NCBI GenBank assembly: GCA_035498015.1
Contig: DATKAO010000217.1
Location: forward strand, 1-43,228
DNA: 43,228 bases
Direction: 5' to 3'
Source: Myxococcota bacterium
GTDB lineage: Bacteria; Myxococcota_A; UBA9160; SZUA-336
In this document: positions 10,061-18,215 of the stretch, one piece after another
Numbering within the stretch: the first letter of the stretch is position 1
Layout of the letters: each line of letters starts with the position of its first letter
Position numbers and translations under genes: made by a program
The notes under the pieces: model-generated
What the model saw: the letters and a program-made list of their open reading frames with translations, nothing else
Told to the model about the DNA's origin: nothing
The model's database searches: none

Positions 10061-10076
10061 GTGCCGTCTACGGCAC
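10061..10076. terminator. Hairpin between convergent genes
   Basis: GTGCCG-TCTA-CGGCAC forms a perfect 6-bp stem with a 4-base loop between the stop at 10050 and the convergent gene, whose TAG stop (10070-10068) lies in the loop. No run of T follows on either strand, so it is a weak or bidirectional terminator at best. Confidence 0.4.
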
Positions 10077-11321
10077 TTCCGACTTGAAGAACGCCGAGAG
10101 ATCGAGACCCGACACCTTCTCCGCGGCCTTCTCGACCCGATCCGTGGTCACCGTGCCGCCCTCGCCGACCAGGATGCGCACCACGTCGTCGAGCGTCTTC
10201 TGGCCGTGGGTGTGCTCGGCGATGCGCTGGTCGAGCGCGCGCAGCACCGTGAGCGAGCGCGCGGTGCCGGCGCCCGAGACACTCCGGCTGCGCAGGTGCG
10301 CGGCCTCCTTGCCCTTCTCGGCCTGGAGCTCGAAGGCCTTCGCCAGCCGCTCGGGCGAGATCGTGTGCGAGCGCCCGAGGAGCTGCAGCGAGTAGTACTG
10401 CGCGAGCCCTTCGATCGCCCAGTCGCCGTCGTTTCCGGGCCGCAGGCCCAGGGCCGTGTGCATGACCTCGTGCAGCAGCGGGCTCGGGCCGTCCTCGGTG
10501 ATCAGCGGCCGGTGCGCGTGCAGGAAGAGTGAGTCGGGGCCCGAGAGACCGCCGTGCCACATCGGGTCGGCCGCGCTCACGACCAGGAGCCTCTCGGGCA
10601 GCGTGCCGAGCACCTGGCGCAGCACGGGCAGGGTCCAGTGCAGGAGCGCCAGCATGTCCTGGCGGCGCACGCCCATGGTGCGCGGCCCCGCGATCGCGAC
10701 CTTCACGCCCGCGACCTCTTCGCGCAGCACGCCCAGGTCGCCCGCGATCATCCAGCCCGTGGGGCGCGCGAAGGCGTGGTGGCGTTTCTCGACCTTGAAC
10801 TCGCCGCTGCGCAGCTTCCCGAAGGGAGTCACGATCGACCAGCTGTCGGGCACGCGCACGCGAAAGCGCGTGTGCGAGCGCGCGCCGTCGGCGGCCTTCA
10901 CGCGCGCCGGCGGCACGAGGTCCTCGCCGCGGAAGATCGCCCAGGTCTTCGCGCAGCGGGCGTCGTAGCGGCGCGCGTCGCGCAGGTGGTCGATGCGGAA
11001 CACGTAGGTCAGCTTCCCGCCCGTGCGCGGCGGGGTCCACGTGACGTGCGCGCCCTCGACGTGCACCTGGCCGTCGCCTCGGAACAGGAGGTGACGCTGC
11101 GGATCGATGCGAAAGCGCAGCCAGTCGACGTTCTCGGCGCCCTTGCCGAGCTCGAGGGTCACGTGCGCAGCGCGCTCCGTGGGCACGATCTGGGCCTCGA
11201 CGTGGAAGTCGTAGCGAAGCCTGGCCGTCGCGGGGGGCGCGGAGGGCTCCTGCGCGCCGAGATCGCCGGTCAGCGCGAGCGCGGCCACGAGCAGAAGGTA
11301 CAGGGCGGCGTGAGGCTTCAA
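10068..11321 (-). CDS. Secreted HExxH metalloprotease-like protein (gluzincin, M61-like), amidoligase operon
   Basis: A 417-residue exported protein beginning at TTG 11321, which overlaps the stop of the ATP-grasp gene (TTGA). This start gives a proper signal peptide (MKPHAALYLLLVAALAL, cleavage near LGAQ). An N-terminal beta-sandwich-like region (about 35-250) is followed by the zinc motif HEVMH (284-288) and WAIEGLAQYY, where Glu304 is the probable third ligand and a Tyr may assist catalysis, as in M1/M61 peptidases. The H-to-E spacing is a little shorter than classical. It is the fourth gene of the operon, where related loci usually have an aspartyl-protease-like RimB-type protein. A role in processing periplasmic peptides made or exported by the system is inferred. 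Confidence 0.82.
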   Translation of the reverse strand: MKPHAALYLLLVAALALTGDLGAQEPSAPPATARLRYDFHVEAQIVPTERAAHVTLELGKGAENVDWLRFRIDPQRHLLFRGDGQVHVEGAHVTWTPPRTGGKLTYVFRIDHLRDARRYDARCAKTWAIFRGEDLVPPARVKAADGARSHTRFRVRVPDSWSIVTPFGKLRSGEFKVEKRHHAFARPTGWMIAGDLGVLREEVAGVKVAIAGPRTMGVRRQDMLALLHWTLPVLRQVLGTLPERLLVVSAADPMWHGGLSGPDSLFLHAHRPLITEDGPSPLLHEVMHTALGLRPGNDGDWAIEGLAQYYSLQLLGRSHTISPERLAKAFELQAEKGKEAAHLRSRSVSGAGTARSLTVLRALDQRIAEHTHGQKTLDDVVRILVGEGGTVTTDRVEKAAEKVSGLDLSAFFKSEVP

Positions 11322-12277
11322 GGCAGCGCTCCGGCGCGCGCGCGGCGCGCGATCTCGCGCCCCAGCGCGATGCGCTCGGGCCAGTGCATCTCGGGCCGCA
11401 CGCGCCGGTCGACCTCGGCGAGCCGCGGCACGAGCCCCGCGCGGTTCGCGACCTGGATCGCCAGGCCCGGCCGCGCGTTCAGCTCGAGCACCAGCGGGCC
11501 GTGGTCCTCGTCGACCACCACGTCGGCTCCCACGTAGCCCAGCCGCGTCTGGTCGCTGGCGCGTACGGCGATCTCGAGCACGCGCTCGAACTCGGGAATC
11601 ATGCGCGCGAGCACGGCCTCCTGTGTGTCGGGGTGCACGTCGACCGCGCGCCCGTCGCAGACCGCGAAGCTCGTGACTCCCGAATCGAGGTCCACGCCCG
11701 CGCCGACCGCCCCCTGGTGCAGGTTGGCGCGGCCGCGCGAGCGGTGCGTGGGCAGGCGAGTCATCGACATGACCGGCACGCCGCGATACACGACCACGCG
11801 CACGTCGGGCACGCCCTCCGCCGAGATCGCGCGCAGGTCGCGGTGCACCGACAGCCGCTCCTCGGCGAACGCCACGTCGGGCTGGCCGCCGAGCGCGTAC
11901 GCGCCCGAGATGATGCTGGCCGAGTGATACGACAGCGCACGGCGGTCGAGCCACTGCCCGCCGGGCCGCAGGAACCAGTCGCCGTCGCGCTCCAGCACCA
12001 CCAGGATGCCGTTGCCCATCGCGCCGTGCGCGGGCTTGATCACGAACGACGCGTAGGCGTCGAGCTCGCGCAGCATGCCGCGCACCTCGGAGTTCGTGCG
12101 CGCGACCGCGAGCACGGGCGCGGTGGCGATGCCCGCGTCGCGCAGCAGGCGCTTGGTCTGGAGCTTGTCGTCCACGCTGGGGTAGTGCGCGCGCCGGTTC
12201 CAGCGCGAAGTGTACTCGCCGTTGCGGCGGTTGATGCCGAGCACGCCCATCGCGCGCAGCCGCGACGCGAGACTCAT
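11318..12277 (-). CDS. ATP-grasp alpha-L-glutamate ligase-like protein (RimK-related)
   Basis: A 319-residue ATP-grasp amidoligase of the RimK-related group TIGR02291. The N-terminus has the family signature GINRRNGEY followed by YPSVDDKLQTKRLL. The ATP-binding lysine is in FVIKPAHGAMGNG (Lys81) with a glycine-rich loop, and metal ligands are in GADVVVD (Asp252) and LELNARPG (Glu265, Asn267). Relatives join an amino acid, often glutamate, to a peptide or protein carboxylate using ATP in the cytoplasm. The ATG overlaps the stop of the 7TM gene (ATGA), and the stop overlaps the TTG start of the protease. Acceptor and amino acid are unknown; the constant partners argue for a peptide tag or small peptide handled at the membrane. 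Confidence 0.93.
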   Translation of the reverse strand: MSLASRLRAMGVLGINRRNGEYTSRWNRRAHYPSVDDKLQTKRLLRDAGIATAPVLAVARTNSEVRGMLRELDAYASFVIKPAHGAMGNGILVVLERDGDWFLRPGGQWLDRRALSYHSASIISGAYALGGQPDVAFAEERLSVHRDLRAISAEGVPDVRVVVYRGVPVMSMTRLPTHRSRGRANLHQGAVGAGVDLDSGVTSFAVCDGRAVDVHPDTQEAVLARMIPEFERVLEIAVRASDQTRLGYVGADVVVDEDHGPLVLELNARPGLAIQVANRAGLVPRLAEVDRRVRPEMHWPERIALGREIARRARAGALP

Positions 12278-13857
12278 GGTGACTCGTCCTCGAGACCGCG
12301 CGCCAGGCTGCGGAAGCGCCACAGCTCCGAGGCGCGGTAGCCGTTGTAACCACCGATCCAGACCAGGATGCCCATGACCGAGATCACGAGCTCCGGGAAG
12401 CCGAACATCAGGTGCTCGAGCGCCGCGATGCGGAAGATCGGATACACGCAGATCGCCGCGAAGGTCGAGGTAGTGAGCCGCCGCACGGCCGAGGGCATGC
12501 CCTCCTCGGCCGTGGTGATCGAGAAGCGCTCGATCAGCATGGTCATGATCACCACCGGAAACAGCACGCTCGCGTACAGGTCCTTGACCTCGTAGGTGCG
12601 CCCGAAGAGTGACTGGGCGGTGATCGCCAGCACCACCACGCACAAGAGCACGCCGAGCCGCGGCACGAGCAAGAGCTGGAGTCTCTCGAGCAGGAGCCGT
12701 GACACGATGCCGAGCGCGATCACCGAGCCCACCAGCCCGAGCCCCAGCCCGAGCGGCAGCTCGCGCAGCGCGAGCGAGATCAAAAGCGGCATGAACGTGC
12801 CGAACGTGCGCAGCCCGACCAGGTTGCGGATCACCGCGATGATCAGCGCGCCGATCGGGAACACCAGGAGAATGCGCAGCGCCTGCTGCGAGCCCACCGG
12901 CAGGCGGTACAGCGAGATCGCCGCCAGGATCGGGTTCGACGGCACCATGAACGACGCCACCTCGTCGGCGCGAAGTGACTCGCGCAGCACGCGGTAGCGC
13001 GAGGACAGCGCCTCGAGCCCGGTCTCCTCCACCAGCGTCGAGCTGCCCTTGCGCAAGAGCAGGAGGTCCGGCGGGCGCGCGCCGAAGAAGCCCAGCGAGG
13101 GCGAGAGCGAGATCCACTCGCCGCCGATCCAGGCCTCGGCCCACACGGCCTCGCGGCCCTCCTTCTGCGCGCCCAGCCGCAGCCCGGCGGCGATGCGCGC
13201 GGGGTAGCCCGCAGCGCGCAGCAGCGCGACCAGGAGCCGTGCCTTCCCGACCTGGCTGCCTTCGCCGGCCGCCAGGGTGAGCAGCGCATCGTCGCTGCCG
13301 GTGTTGGCGGTCAGGATCTCGTCGGCGACGTAGCCGAGCAACAGGCGCATCTGGCCCAGGGGGTCGTTGGGGTTCGCGGGCGCGATGTTGCCCAAGAGGT
13401 CGTGCAGCTCGGGCGCGTCGGACGGGAAGTGAGTGCTCGAGCGCAGATACTGCTCGGCGATCTCCTTGGGCGGGGCCAGGCCCACGTCGCTGGGCAGCGG
13501 CAGCGGCTCTTCGGAGAGCTGCACGCGGAAGGCGTGGGTCAGGTTGTGGACGCCGTCGAACTTGCCGCTCCAGATGCCGATGCGCTGGCCGGTCTTCTCG
13601 GTGCGGATCGTGAACACCAGCCGATCACTCGTCTGGCGCTCGTCGAAGATCTCCTGCTGGTTGTCGGAGTCGGGCAATGCCGAGCGCACGCTGCCGCGCT
13701 GACCCGAGCCGCGCGCGTCGATCTCGAGCTCCACGCGCCACAGGTTCTCGACGCCGGACGGCCACACCGGCAGGTGCAGCACCAGCGTCTTCCAGGCGAA
13801 GATCGCCAGCCCGATCGCGACCAGGAGACTCCCGGTCAAGACCGCCGCGCGATTCAC
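12274..13857 (-). CDS. Inactive transglutaminase domain fused to seven TM helices (UUP1-type)
   Basis: A 527-residue membrane protein. One N-terminal TM helix (about 6-28) is followed by an extracytoplasmic transglutaminase-like domain (about 40-300), then a C-terminal set of about seven helices with the family motifs RTFGTFMPLL (350-359), IERFSITTAEEG (442-453) and GGYNGYR (502-508). The transglutaminase fold is recognisable (GKARLLVALLRAAGYPARIAAGL), but the Cys is lost (GEGSQVGKA, 198-206) and the usual His segment reads VWAEAWIGGEW (238-248), so it is inactive and probably binds peptide. Families PF14400/PF14402 travel with ATP-grasp ligases. The GTG start lies 15 bp after the AstE-like gene. 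It may sense or transport the ligase product. Confidence 0.92.
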   Translation of the reverse strand: MNRAAVLTGSLLVAIGLAIFAWKTLVLHLPVWPSGVENLWRVELEIDARGSGQRGSVRSALPDSDNQQEIFDERQTSDRLVFTIRTEKTGQRIGIWSGKFDGVHNLTHAFRVQLSEEPLPLPSDVGLAPPKEIAEQYLRSSTHFPSDAPELHDLLGNIAPANPNDPLGQMRLLLGYVADEILTANTGSDDALLTLAAGEGSQVGKARLLVALLRAAGYPARIAAGLRLGAQKEGREAVWAEAWIGGEWISLSPSLGFFGARPPDLLLLRKGSSTLVEETGLEALSSRYRVLRESLRADEVASFMVPSNPILAAISLYRLPVGSQQALRILLVFPIGALIIAVIRNLVGLRTFGTFMPLLISLALRELPLGLGLGLVGSVIALGIVSRLLLERLQLLLVPRLGVLLCVVVLAITAQSLFGRTYEVKDLYASVLFPVVIMTMLIERFSITTAEEGMPSAVRRLTTSTFAAICVYPIFRIAALEHLMFGFPELVISVMGILVWIGGYNGYRASELWRFRSLARGLEDESP

Positions 13858-13872
13858 GTCGGCGTCCGCGCG

Positions 13873-14973
13873 CTAATCGGGCCGCTCCTCGAGCCCGGCG
13901 CGCGCGGCGTCCTCGCCCTGATCGACGCTGGGCAGCGCGGCGGGCAGGCTCGTGCGCTGCACTCCGCCCTCGGTCGCGATGTGGAAGGCCGCGTAGCCGG
14001 GCATGACAAGCTGGTCGATCGCCACGCCGATGATGCGCCCGCGCTCGGGCGCGCGGATCTTGGTCTTCTGGTTCGAGATCGGATCGAACACGGTGCCGAG
14101 CAGCTGCTTCGCCTGCACCATGTCGCCGAGCTGCGCGCGCGCGGCCAGGATCCCGCCCTCCTCGGCGCGCACCCAGCGGGAGCGGAAGTAGATCGCGGGC
14201 GCCGGCAGCGCGTCGGCGGCGGGGGGCAGCATGTCGAGCGCGCCCAGGAGCTGGCGCACACCCGCGAGCCCGCGCCCGATGGCGTCTTCCTGGAAGCGCA
14301 TGGGCTCGCCGGCCTCGTAGGCGATCGCGGGAATGCCCGCGTCGGTCGCGGCGCGGCGCAGCGTGCCGGGCCGGCCCTCGTTGTGGATGGCGAGCGGGCT
14401 GCCGAAGGCCTTGGCCAGCGCCAGCACGTCGGCGCGCCGCAGGTCGCCGCGCACCTGCGGCAGGTTGGTGCGATGGAACGAGCCGGAGTGCACGTCGACC
14501 AGCAGCTCGCAGTGTCTCACCACGTCGTCGAACAGGCGCCGCGCCAGCCGCGCGGCCGAGCTGCCCTTCGAGTGACCGGGGAAGAAGCGGTTCAGGTCGC
14601 GGCGGTCGGGCAGGTAGCGCGAGCCGCGCCGGAACGCGGCCAGGTTCACGATCGGTACACCGATCAGTGTTCCCCGCAGCTCCGCGGCCTGGGTGCGCTC
14701 GAGCGAGCGCCGCACCACCTCGACCCCGTTCAGCTCGTCGCCGTGGATGCCGCCGGTGAGACACACCACGCGCCCGGGCTTCGCGCCCGCGACCACGATC
14801 ACCGGCGTCGAGCTGTCGCCGCCGACCGACTCACCGACCGGCAGCGCCAGCCGCCGCACCTCGCCGCGCGCGATCGTCTGCCCCAGGACCTGGAGCGGCT
14901 CGGCGCGGGCGGCCGGCGAGGGCGCCCACGCGAGCGAGCCGACGAGCAGAGCGACGATCCCCCCGAGCCGCAT
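13873..14973 (-). CDS. Exported succinylglutamate desuccinylase/aspartoacylase-like M14 metallopeptidase
   Basis: A 366-residue zinc deacylase or carboxypeptidase of the AstE/AspA branch of M14. The zinc site is HGDE (His77, Glu80) plus His162 in DVHSG; the substrate arginine is in RDLNRF (125-130) and the catalytic glutamate in AYEAGE (about 220). Unlike cytosolic AstE or AspA, it has a signal peptide (about 1-24) and a C-terminal beta domain (about 255-345). It is the first gene of the four-gene amidoligase operon and would cut an amide or acyl bond of a Glu/Asp-like product outside the cytoplasm, i.e. oppose or mature the ligase reaction. The gene begins 59 bp after the TetR stop on the same strand. 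Function is inferred from family and context. Confidence 0.9.
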   Translation of the reverse strand: MRLGGIVALLVGSLAWAPSPAARAEPLQVLGQTIARGEVRRLALPVGESVGGDSSTPVIVVAGAKPGRVVCLTGGIHGDELNGVEVVRRSLERTQAAELRGTLIGVPIVNLAAFRRGSRYLPDRRDLNRFFPGHSKGSSAARLARRLFDDVVRHCELLVDVHSGSFHRTNLPQVRGDLRRADVLALAKAFGSPLAIHNEGRPGTLRRAATDAGIPAIAYEAGEPMRFQEDAIGRGLAGVRQLLGALDMLPPAADALPAPAIYFRSRWVRAEEGGILAARAQLGDMVQAKQLLGTVFDPISNQKTKIRAPERGRIIGVAIDQLVMPGYAAFHIATEGGVQRTSLPAALPSVDQGEDAARAGLEERPD

Positions 14974-15032: not shown

Positions 15033-15647
15033 TCAGGCTTCCAGGAGTGCCAGGACGGATGCGGTCATCTGCGCCTGCGGGAAGACGACACCCGTGTCCT
15101 GCAGGTGCATCGCGCCGACACCGAGCGTCACGATGCTCTCCGCGGCGCGCACCGGATCGAGGCTCTTCTTCACCTCGCCCTTTTCCTGCGCGCGCACGAC
15201 CAGCTGCGCGAGGCCCTCGGTGATCTTCCGAAACACCTCGCCCCAGCGCTCCTTCAGCTGCTCCGAGCGGCAGATCGCCTCCGACAGGCGGTGCGTGGCG
15301 ATCGGGTACTTGCCCACCACCGGCCACTCGCGGTGCACCATGTAGCCCGTGAAGCGGTCGACGGCCGTCCTCAGGTCGGTGTCTCCGTTGGCGCCGACCA
15401 CGCTGGTCAGAATGCCGGTCAACGCCCAGTCCATGACCGCGACGAAGAAGTCTTCGCGGTCCTTGAAGTGCACGTAGAACGCGCCCCGCGTGTAGCCTGC
15501 CCGCGCGCAGATCGCGTCGAGGCTCGGCGCGTCGAGGCCGCGCTCCACGAGCTCGATCAGCCCCGCGTACAAGAGCGACTGCTTGGTGGCTTCCTTGGAT
15601 TCGGCACGGGAGCGGCGCGGGGGTCTCTCGGCGGCGTTCGGCTGCAT
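15033..15647 (-). CDS. TetR/AcrR-family transcriptional regulator
   Basis: A 204-residue TetR repressor. The HTH lies at about residues 20-65 (LDAICARAGYTRGAFYVHFKDREDF), with a variable ligand domain after it. The start ATG 15647 has an AGGAAGGA ribosome binding site; an in-frame ATG at 15701 would lengthen the protein but lacks one. An AGAACGAGTTCT inverted repeat just upstream is a candidate autoregulatory operator. The gene lies between the mechanosensitive channel gene (102 bp upstream) and the amidoligase operon (59 bp downstream, same strand), so it may be co-transcribed with, and control, that operon. The inducer is unknown. Confidence 0.92.
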   Translation of the reverse strand: MQPNAAERPPRRSRAESKEATKQSLLYAGLIELVERGLDAPSLDAICARAGYTRGAFYVHFKDREDFFVAVMDWALTGILTSVVGANGDTDLRTAVDRFTGYMVHREWPVVGKYPIATHRLSEAICRSEQLKERWGEVFRKITEGLAQLVVRAQEKGEVKKSLDPVRAAESIVTLGVGAMHLQDTGVVFPQAQMTASVLALLEA

Positions 15648-15680
15648 GTTTCCTTCCTGTGTGGAACGTATGCGGAGCGT

Positions 15681-15692
15681 AGAACGAGTTCT
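15681..15692. promoter_or_regulatory. Candidate TetR operator (inverted repeat)
   Basis: AGAAC-GA-GTTCT is a perfect 5-bp-arm inverted repeat 34-45 bases upstream of the TetR start, in one of the few AT-richer patches nearby. The position suits autorepression. The arms are short, so chance is possible. Confidence 0.35.
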
Positions 15693-15749
15693 CATTACCA
15701 CGCCGCCGCAGGGAGTTTCAAGAAACCCTGACCGGCCGGACCGGGCGAG

Positions 15750-18215
15750 TTACTCGCTGCGGGACTCCACGCGCAGGTGCACTTCGCGCTGCGGAAACGG
15801 GATCTCGATGCCCGCCCCGCGCAGCGCCTCGAGCAGCGCCACCAGGAGCTCGCTGCGCACCCGCGAGCCGATCTCCACGCGGCACCAGATCTGGAGCTGG
15901 AACACGAGCCCGCCTCCGTCCGCGAAGCGCGTGAACAGCGCCACCGGCTCGGGCAGTGACAGCACCTCGGAGCGGCCGCGGGAGGTCTCGAGCAGGATCG
16001 CAATCACCTTGTTGGCGTCGGAGCCGGCGCCCACGGTGAGCTCGAGGTCGAAGCGCCGCGTGCGGTCCGAGAAAGTCCAGTTCACCAGTCTCTCGGAGAT
16101 CAGCGTGGCGTTGGGCACGATCACGTCGGCGCCTTCGCCGGTGCGCACCGTGCTGGAGCGGATGCCGATACGCTTCACCTCGCCCGAGATCGGCCCGATG
16201 TCGATCTGGTCGCCGGTCTGCACGGGTCTCTCGAACAGCAGGATCAGACCCGACACGAAGTTGTTGACCACGTTCTGCAGGCCGAAGCCGATACCCACGC
16301 CCAGCGCGCCGGCGATCAGGCCGAACTTCGACAGGTCGATGCCCGCCGCCCCGATCGCGATCACGAAGCCGCCCGCCAGGATCGTGTAGTGGACGCCGGT
16401 CGAGATGGCCGCCGGCACGCCGCGCGGCAGTGACACGTGCGGCAGCACGTCCTCGTCGAGGAAGAAGCGCAGGAAGCGCGAGATCTGCGCCGAGAGCCAG
16501 ATCGCGAGGAAGAACGCCACCACGTTGCCGAGGCTGACCGACACCGTGCCGACCTCGAGCCGCGCCTGGAACATGACGACCAGCGCGCTGCGCACGCTGG
16601 GCTCGAGCCCCATCGCGCGCAGCGAGGTGCCGACCCACAACAAGAGCCCGACCCAGCGCTGCAGGCCGTTGATTCGGTGGCGCATCAGCTCGCCGTGATC
16701 GCGCACCGACTGCAGCTTGCGCGCAAAGTCACTGCGCAGCGCGGCCGTCACCACGCCGGTCGCGAAGCGCACCAGCGCGTAGATCGCGATGCCGGCGTAG
16801 ATGGTCACGAGCACGCCGCGCAAGAGCACGCGCGAGAGCTGGATCTGGCCGAACAGGTTGGCGGCGGCCGCCCCGAGACACACGGCCAGGGCCACGCGAG
16901 ACACCGGCACGGCCACCGGGCCGAACAGCCCGACCCCGCGCAGCCGGTCCGCGTGGTCCTTGCGCAGCACCCAGGCGAGCAGCCAGATCGTGCCGATCGT
17001 CTCCGGCAGCATGAGGAAGCGCTCGACGGTGGGCGAGGCCGAGAGCAGCCCGCGGATCGAGCCCAGGAAGAACAGCGTGGCCAGCCCGATCAGCCCCGCG
17101 CGCAGGCCGCCGACCAGCTCGGGCGGAAGCAGGCGCAGCACGGGGATCAGCAGGGTGAGCGCCTCGACCTCGGACAGCACCCCGGGCGAGCGCGGCATGA
17201 GCCAGAAGGTCGAGCTGATCGCCACCACCAGCGCGGCCGAGATCGGGCGCTCGAAGATGCGCGTGGGCATTTGCAGGGCCGGGTCCGCGGCCGCGGGCGA
17301 GCGGGTGACTCGCCGGCGCGCCAGCAACAGCAGCGTGAGTGCCACCGCGAAGATCGTGAGCTCGACCTGCACGCGCGCGACCGAGAGCGTGAGGAACTCG
17401 CGCAACAGGTCGAGCTTGCGCTCGACCGCGGCGCGCACTCTCTCGGGTACGAACGCGGGGTCGCCGGACGGCGCCCACGCCTCGGAGCTCCACAGTGGCG
17501 GCGCGTCGCGCTCGAACAGGTGCTTGCTCTGGTCGCCGCGCTGCCGCGCGATGCGGTCGACCATCGAGCTCACCACGAGCTCTTCGCTCGCGACCTCGTC
17601 CTGCAGCGTGAGCGCCTGGCTGCGCTGGTCCTTCAGCCGGCGCTCCGCGCCGCTCACCATGGAGAGTGTGTCGGAGATGCGCTCGCGCGTGGCCGGCGGC
17701 AGCCCCGCGGCCTCGGGCGCGTCGCGCGTGCGCTCCCACAGCTCGCGCTCGCCCTGCAGCACGCGCAGGTCGGCCTCGATCTGCTGCGCGATGCGGGTCA
17801 GTCCCAGGCGCCAGGTCCGCAGCCGGTCGAGGCGCGAGCGCCACTCGTTGTCGAGGTCGTTCAGCGCGTCGAGCGTGGGCGAGGCTTCGAGCAGCGCGTC
17901 GGCGCGCGCCGTGCGCTCGCGCAGCCGCGCCGAGGTCTCGGGCAGCCGCTCCGCGATCTCCTGCTGCAGCGGGCCCTCGGTGTTCTGGTCGTGGATGCGC
18001 CGCACCAGGTTCTTGGCGTCCTCGGCGCGACTCACGATCTCGGGCGCGGGAATCACCTCGGCCGGCGGGGCGGGGGCGGCGGCTTCGCCCGGCAGCGGCG
18101 CGGGCGAGGGCGGGGGCGGGACCACGTCGGCCCGCGCGGACAGCGCGGCTCCGCCGAGCCAGGTGGTGAGCCAGGCGGCGGCGGCGAATCGGGTCAGCGC
18201 CCGCGCGATCGACAC
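15750..18215 (-). CDS. Large MscS-family mechanosensitive channel with periplasmic N-terminal domain
   Basis: An 821-residue member of the MscS superfamily, built like the large MscK/MscM/DUF3772 channels. It has a GTG start at 18215, a signal peptide (about 1-29), a Pro-rich linker, a periplasmic alpha-helical coiled-coil region (about 55-260), about eight to ten further TM helices, and the C-terminal MscS core. The core is recognised by the Gly/Ala-rich pore helix FGLIAGALGVGIGFGLQNVV, then LLFERPVQTGDQIDIG and a beta plus alpha/beta cytoplasmic vestibule ending EVHLRVESRSE. It releases solutes on hypo-osmotic shock. It lies 16 bp after the MFS gene on the same strand, so the two may be co-transcribed. 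Confidence 0.93.
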   Translation of the reverse strand: MSIARALTRFAAAAWLTTWLGGAALSARADVVPPPPSPAPLPGEAAAPAPPAEVIPAPEIVSRAEDAKNLVRRIHDQNTEGPLQQEIAERLPETSARLRERTARADALLEASPTLDALNDLDNEWRSRLDRLRTWRLGLTRIAQQIEADLRVLQGERELWERTRDAPEAAGLPPATRERISDTLSMVSGAERRLKDQRSQALTLQDEVASEELVVSSMVDRIARQRGDQSKHLFERDAPPLWSSEAWAPSGDPAFVPERVRAAVERKLDLLREFLTLSVARVQVELTIFAVALTLLLLARRRVTRSPAAADPALQMPTRIFERPISAALVVAISSTFWLMPRSPGVLSEVEALTLLIPVLRLLPPELVGGLRAGLIGLATLFFLGSIRGLLSASPTVERFLMLPETIGTIWLLAWVLRKDHADRLRGVGLFGPVAVPVSRVALAVCLGAAAANLFGQIQLSRVLLRGVLVTIYAGIAIYALVRFATGVVTAALRSDFARKLQSVRDHGELMRHRINGLQRWVGLLLWVGTSLRAMGLEPSVRSALVVMFQARLEVGTVSVSLGNVVAFFLAIWLSAQISRFLRFFLDEDVLPHVSLPRGVPAAISTGVHYTILAGGFVIAIGAAGIDLSKFGLIAGALGVGIGFGLQNVVNNFVSGLILLFERPVQTGDQIDIGPISGEVKRIGIRSSTVRTGEGADVIVPNATLISERLVNWTFSDRTRRFDLELTVGAGSDANKVIAILLETSRGRSEVLSLPEPVALFTRFADGGGLVFQLQIWCRVEIGSRVRSELLVALLEALRGAGIEIPFPQREVHLRVESRSE

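Follow-up and report, generated by a model that had tools for sequence, protein, structure and literature searches.

The locus examined here raises the question of what is made, and where it is processed, by an operon that joins a predicted amide-forming ligase to two exported hydrolases. It lies in a stretch of 43,228 nucleotides from a Myxococcota bacterium (GenBank assembly GCA_035498015.1, contig DATKAO010000217.1, positions 1 to 43,228 of the forward strand), referred to below as the window, and consists of four genes read on the minus strand from 14973 to 10068: an AstE-like gene, homologues of rloB and rloC, and an M61-like gene. We propose, with a probability of roughly 55%, that these genes form a variant of the Rlo-type envelope amidoligase operon, the acidic product of which would be trimmed outside the inner membrane. 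The first-pass annotation of this DNA considered the biological output undescribed, which is outdated: in Pseudomonas aeruginosa rloB and rloC have phenotypes and show epistasis with a protease that cleaves poly-glutamate (poly-Glu) (PMC12239564). There, rloA, rloB and rloC constitute one cell-envelope stress operon, which governs hypo-osmotic tolerance (mBio 2025, PMC12239564). RloA is a secreted retropepsin that cuts poly-Glu of at least 8 residues in vitro, and P. aeruginosa without all three secreted RloA proteases is low-salt sensitive, misshapen and antibiotic-sensitive; when rloB or rloC is deleted from the rloA1-3 mutant, growth recovers completely and the remaining defects in part (PMC12239564). 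Phenotypes of rlo mutants concern cell shape, cell-wall antibiotics and biofilm (PMC12239564). A screen in Shewanella linked an inactive transglutaminase/7TM (seven-transmembrane) gene to vesicle overproduction (PMC12096838).

Judged from its sequence, the operon is real, conserved and active-looking. The AstE-like gene (13873-14973; ATG start, 366 amino acids; PF24827) is followed after a 15-bp gap by the rloB homologue (12274-13857; GTG start, 527 amino acids; PF14402, PF01841 and PF14400), which shares a 4-bp ATGA overlap with the rloC homologue (11318-12277; ATG start, 319 amino acids; TIGR02291 and PF14397); this in turn overlaps the M61-like gene (10068-11321; TTG start, 417 amino acids; fold model and HExxH site) by 4 bp, TTGA. 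Inspection of the open reading frames agreed with the same-strand arrangement, gap and overlaps given in the first-pass annotation, and family scans together with the fold model bore out its assignment of the four products as AstE-like, inactive transglutaminase-7TM, ATP-grasp and HExxH proteins. A missing four-gene linkage had been named beforehand as one result that would refute that annotation; the contiguous order AstE-RloB-RloC-M61 was found in about 17 genomes (the window and loci L035, L036, L039, L044, L046-L052, L054-L057 and L092; in L039 the last gene is truncated). Because the genes keep their order, their translational coupling and almost identical spacings across these genomes of the class, the linkage is not a matter of chance. 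PF14402 was present in 32 of 80 relatives. Among the other neighbourhoods, several operons are split by contig ends, L045 has the AstE gene moved to the end, and a group mostly of family f7 carries RloB-RloC-M61 without an adjacent AstE gene.

The window RloB matched PF14402 (7TM_transglut, E 3.9e-60), PF01841 (Transglut_core) and PF14400, and is laid out as an N-terminal transmembrane helix, a periplasmic inactive transglutaminase-like domain and a 7TM bundle. Against the NCBIfam model NF052267 (RloB), an exception-type model with a very high cut-off, it scored 221 bits, far under the 900 bits required. Its AlphaFold (AF2) model has a pLDDT (predicted local distance difference test) of 84, and the transglutaminase domain matches 3isr with E 3.5e-13; the catalytic cysteine (Cys) and histidine (His) are gone although PF01841 still matches. 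The adjoining RloC exceeded the TIGR02291 cut-off (325.8 against 314.2 bits) and matched PF14397 with E 3e-68. It did not reach the cut-off of TIGR00768, the RimK family (48.2 against 143.4 bits), and RimK models were matched in part only. Its residues K81, E265 and N267, putative ATP or metal residues, are invariant among homologues, in line with the ATP-grasp identity claimed earlier, and the protein is a predicted cytoplasmic RimK-like ATP-grasp ligase.

The fourth protein matched only PF05299 (M61) in the Pfam scan, with E 0.005 and 17.7 bits, under the 22-bit cut-off. Since a sequence profile of the family found no convincing solved relative, a fold model was used. The AF2 model, built with 22 homologues, has a pLDDT of 90, and Foldseek retrieved first the M61 aminopeptidases (7xyo, 4fgm, 8j9c) and then M1 aminopeptidases; the best match, 7xyo, had E 4.3e-19 and a TM-score of 0.59 by query, with M1 members nearly as good. 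The zinc site HEVMH (H284, E285, H288) and E304 are invariant in the alignment of the 22 homologues. GGLSGP stands where a canonical M61 protein of the class (L177) has GLEH, and the aminopeptidase Glu motif is thus missing from this family. The Glu of that motif in M1 and M61 enzymes contacts the substrate amino terminus; because it is replaced, the M61-like family may comprise endopeptidases or acceptors of acidic chains.

Among 379 genomes of the phylum, strong M61-like matches were nearly confined to the window's class and almost all lay beside RloB-RloC. Thirty genomes had such a match; 29 of them carry PF14402, and the RloB of the remaining one, G042, lies at the end of a contig and is truncated. 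Outside the class there was a partial match of 96 bits (G378), all others being at most 38 bits. PF05618 (RloA/RimB) gave no match in the window's own draft genome (G000; 257 contigs, 95% complete) or in a relative of the same genus. RloA-RloB-RloC does occur in the class (L061-L064; genomes G013, G057, G038 and G078) and at L079 of the same phylum, and in Pseudomonadota the RloA retropepsin was present in nearly all loci seen with a dead RloB. The earlier pairing of TIGR02291/PF14402 genes with AstE and HExxH partners consequently does not hold as a general statement. One genus shows a swap: G038 has RloA beside RloB and no M61-like match, whereas G076, a draft with about 6% contamination, has no RloA beside RloB and an M61-like gene elsewhere. 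The M61-like protein looks like a replacement of RloA.

The state of the RloB catalytic site follows the same division. Neither Cys nor His is present in the 28 RloB sequences of the M61 type, the window's own type, which upholds the dead transglutaminase of the first-pass annotation. Both are likewise gone from 46 sequences of the RloA type (0 of 74 keep either); L065 and L152 were counted among the 46 by sequence kinship, no RloA lying in their fetched stretch. Another version keeps Cys and His in 16 of 16 sequences and Asp in 14 of 16 (L080-L089 from other classes of the phylum, L059, and L160-L164 from five Pseudomonadota genomes). In the fetched stretches of these 16 loci, some of them short, RloA, AstE and M61 were not matched; TPR proteins and an outer-membrane-barrel-like protein mostly come after RloC where the sequence reaches that far, the barrel-like protein lying upstream in L059. 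Trees of the 7TM half alone, with the site excluded, place the M61 type and the intact type each in one clade (99/99 and 100/99; 97 and 93 in a second tree), the M61 clade joining the long-branched RloA-type sequence L079. Since each type is one clade, the correlation between site and protease, although complete in the sample, rests on few events. The pattern suggests that the catalytic site has disappeared from RloB in every version that leaves the cutting to a separate protease; to call this a loss is a reading of trees with no fixed root, though the transglutaminase fold normally carries the site. We found no description of this intact-versus-dead pattern in the literature.

Two groups of PF14402 proteins were set aside as too distant. 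Those of L037, L038 and L094 are weak relatives (53-71 bits) in open frames of about 650-700 amino acids, with no adjoining RloC. L165 (6080-7919) and L166 (5897-7955) encode a shortened RloB of about 380 amino acids, which keeps the 7TM part and lacks the transglutaminase domain; RloC comes directly after it, and the gene before it encodes a seemingly secreted protein that no Pfam family matches. In L165, RimB-like and RimK-like genes lie just upstream of the shortened RloB.

The AstE-like protein matched PF24827 (AstE_AspA_cat) with E 4.7e-43 and 147.4 bits against a cut-off of 25. Its nearest relatives, including those in the PDB, are DoeB-type deacylases, and it belongs with the M14-type zinc amidohydrolases; zinc ligands and catalytic Glu are intact (H77, E80, H162 and E220/E223, invariant in 16 homologues). 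Its N-terminus, MRLGGIVALLVGSLAWAPSPAARAEP, and that of the M61-like protein, MKPHAALYLLLVAALALTGDLGAQEP, each read by eye as a Sec signal peptide, consistent with the two exported peptidases proposed earlier. The window protein ends in an acidic tail, ...EERPD (13873-13900). Most AstE copies beside rloB have a variable linker and then a conserved acidic [DE][RH]P[ED] C-terminus, in which codons have changed and residues are kept; the tail is different in copies placed elsewhere (L045, L064) and in L095, and absent from RimK-linked AstE. That the GAGGAG codons of the tail arose as a Shine-Dalgarno sequence was considered and rejected, as they lie about 13-28 nt from the rloB start and the residues are constant despite varying codons (AGG/CGN, CAT). 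In the same class we found cytoplasmic RimK-AstE-RimB clusters (L112, L114, L115, L116 and L118; RimB being PF05618 without a signal peptide), and in L064 and L117 an AstE gene lies divergently beside RloA-RloB. On account of these two arrangements AstE seems to accompany poly-Glu-type systems generally as an accessory, with cytoplasmic and exported forms, and the triads tie it to poly-Glu chemistry.

Taken as a variant Rlo-type operon, the four genes would work as follows. In the cytoplasm, RloC would spend ATP on building or lengthening an acidic chain joined through amide bonds; on the precedent of RimK, the chain is probably rich in Glu. RloB would hold this product or pass it across the inner membrane, presenting it through a periplasmic domain whose transglutaminase fold, devoid of catalytic residues, would serve for binding. 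In RloA's place the M61-like zinc protease, which is exported, would cut the chain, and the exported AstE-like enzyme would take off a terminal residue or an acyl cap. The balance between chain synthesis and cleavage would matter for the integrity of the envelope in hypo-osmotic stress. The substrate, its Glu content, the direction of transport and the physiological output are parts of this scheme that we infer. Several observations weigh against it. The activities of RloC and of the AstE-type and M61-like proteins are predictions. RloA could sit in a gap of the window's draft genome, and G042 holds both RloA-RloB (L117, at a contig end, with the divergent AstE) and an M61-like gene (L107), on separate contigs. 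The protease swap amounts to one clade, and the intact/dead contrast is essentially one split of the tree. Finally, AstE is not linked to the operon in family f7, and it was not found in G013 and G057, which marks it as an accessory; most f7 genomes without an adjacent AstE gene have one of the same type elsewhere in the genome.

Other accounts of the same genes differ in the fate of the product. RloB-RloC could be a peptide-polymer exporter and not a protein tagger, with RloC polymerising, RloB exporting to the cell surface, and the exported peptidases setting chain length or recycling the polymer. As far as the contigs extend, TPR and outer-membrane-barrel-like genes come after RloB-RloC in five Pseudomonadota genomes and in the phylum's other classes, an arrangement reminiscent of exopolymer secretion, and the biofilm phenotype of rlo mutants (PMC12239564) points the same way; however, the window operon has no adjoining outer-membrane or TPR genes, the barrel assignment is weak (PF11854 with E 1e-6 and PF13505 with E 3e-5, once each, and several proteins without a match), and no polymer is known. 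We consider this account doubtful.

Glutamylation of an envelope protein, in which RloC would extend a C-terminus before export and the peptidases would remove residues, appears improbable to us. It has a precedent in RimK, which adds Glu at the C-terminus of RpsF (PMC10092738, PMC12239564), and a candidate acceptor in the AstE-like protein itself, the acidic tail of which is kept at the protein level beside rloB, differs elsewhere and is absent from RimK-linked AstE; yet that tail might just as well serve for docking, and in some genomes with RloB-RloC the AstE gene is unlinked or missing. Slightly less probable still is an action on peptidoglycan or its stem peptides, in which the ligase would extend a recycled peptide by an amino acid, while the M61-like protein and the AstE-like protein, whose M14 fold is shared by some murein amidases, would trim the wall. 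The altered cell shape of rlo mutants and their phenotypes with cell-wall antibiotics (PMC12239564) are consistent with such a role, as is a weak match of AstE to MpaA (E 0.027), but AstE is far nearer DoeB/aspartoacylase, no wall-recycling genes stood out in the examined loci, and the specificity of RloA is for poly-Glu.

Beyond the window, the variant Rlo-type reading can be extended, tentatively and with somewhat less than even confidence, to a general scheme in which RloB-RloC would form the constant part of a trans-envelope peptide-polymer system, and a single processing step would be interchangeable. That step, a cut or a transfer, would be performed by a transglutaminase-type cysteine centre in RloB itself in the versions with TPR and barrel-like partners, or, where this centre is dead, by the secreted aspartic protease RloA or by the M61-like protein with AstE. 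Three hydrolases of unrelated kinds seem to occupy the same slot, and their grouping around one core narrows the options: an amide bond on a periplasmic product would be either hydrolysed or transferred. The rlo system shapes cell form, sensitivity to cell-wall antibiotics and biofilm in P. aeruginosa, and the pattern across families makes its product easier to attack; RloB versions that keep Cys and His offer a way of trapping the substrate.

Two neighbouring genes on the same strand may bear on physiology. A TetR-family regulator (15033-15701; PF00440, E 4e-10) lies 59 bp upstream of the operon and is also found upstream of it in the same-genus genome G001; it possibly regulates the operon. 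Next to it, a mechanosensitive channel of the MscK/MscS type is encoded at 15750-18215 (PF00924, E 5.6e-21). Of 21 genomes, 5 have an MscS-type gene no farther than about 5 kb from the operon (window, L042, L043, L048 and L054), representing 3 of 14 genera, compared to about 0.2 expected; we estimated the latter from the 95 channel matches that these 21 genomes, of about 5 Mb, contain. The channel is perhaps functionally linked to the operon, and its proximity agrees, indirectly, with a hypo-osmotic role.

Comparison with known systems places the window operon among several relatives. Iyer et al. in 2009 reportedly predicted TIGR02291/PF14402 amidoligase systems composed of an ATP-grasp ligase and an inactive transglutaminase-7TM protein, and the window pairs the same two components. 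The rim operon (RimK with RimB, and RimA in some) likewise couples a RimK-fold ligase to a protease, and in the window's class its five AstE-containing clusters have AstE as a third partner, as in the window; it differs in being cytoplasmic, in acting on RpsF and in lacking a 7TM partner. With the M61 aminopeptidases 7xyo, 4fgm and 8j9c the window protein shares the fold, the HExxH motif and the downstream Glu, at 12-18% identity in structural alignment, and departs from them in GGLSGP replacing GLEH and in a Pfam match under the cut-off. The rlo operon of P. aeruginosa combines, as the window does, RloB (dead transglutaminase and 7TM), RloC (ATP-grasp) and an exported protease in one operon, whereas the window lacks the retropepsin RloA (PF05618) and carries the M61-like and AstE-like genes in the flanking places.

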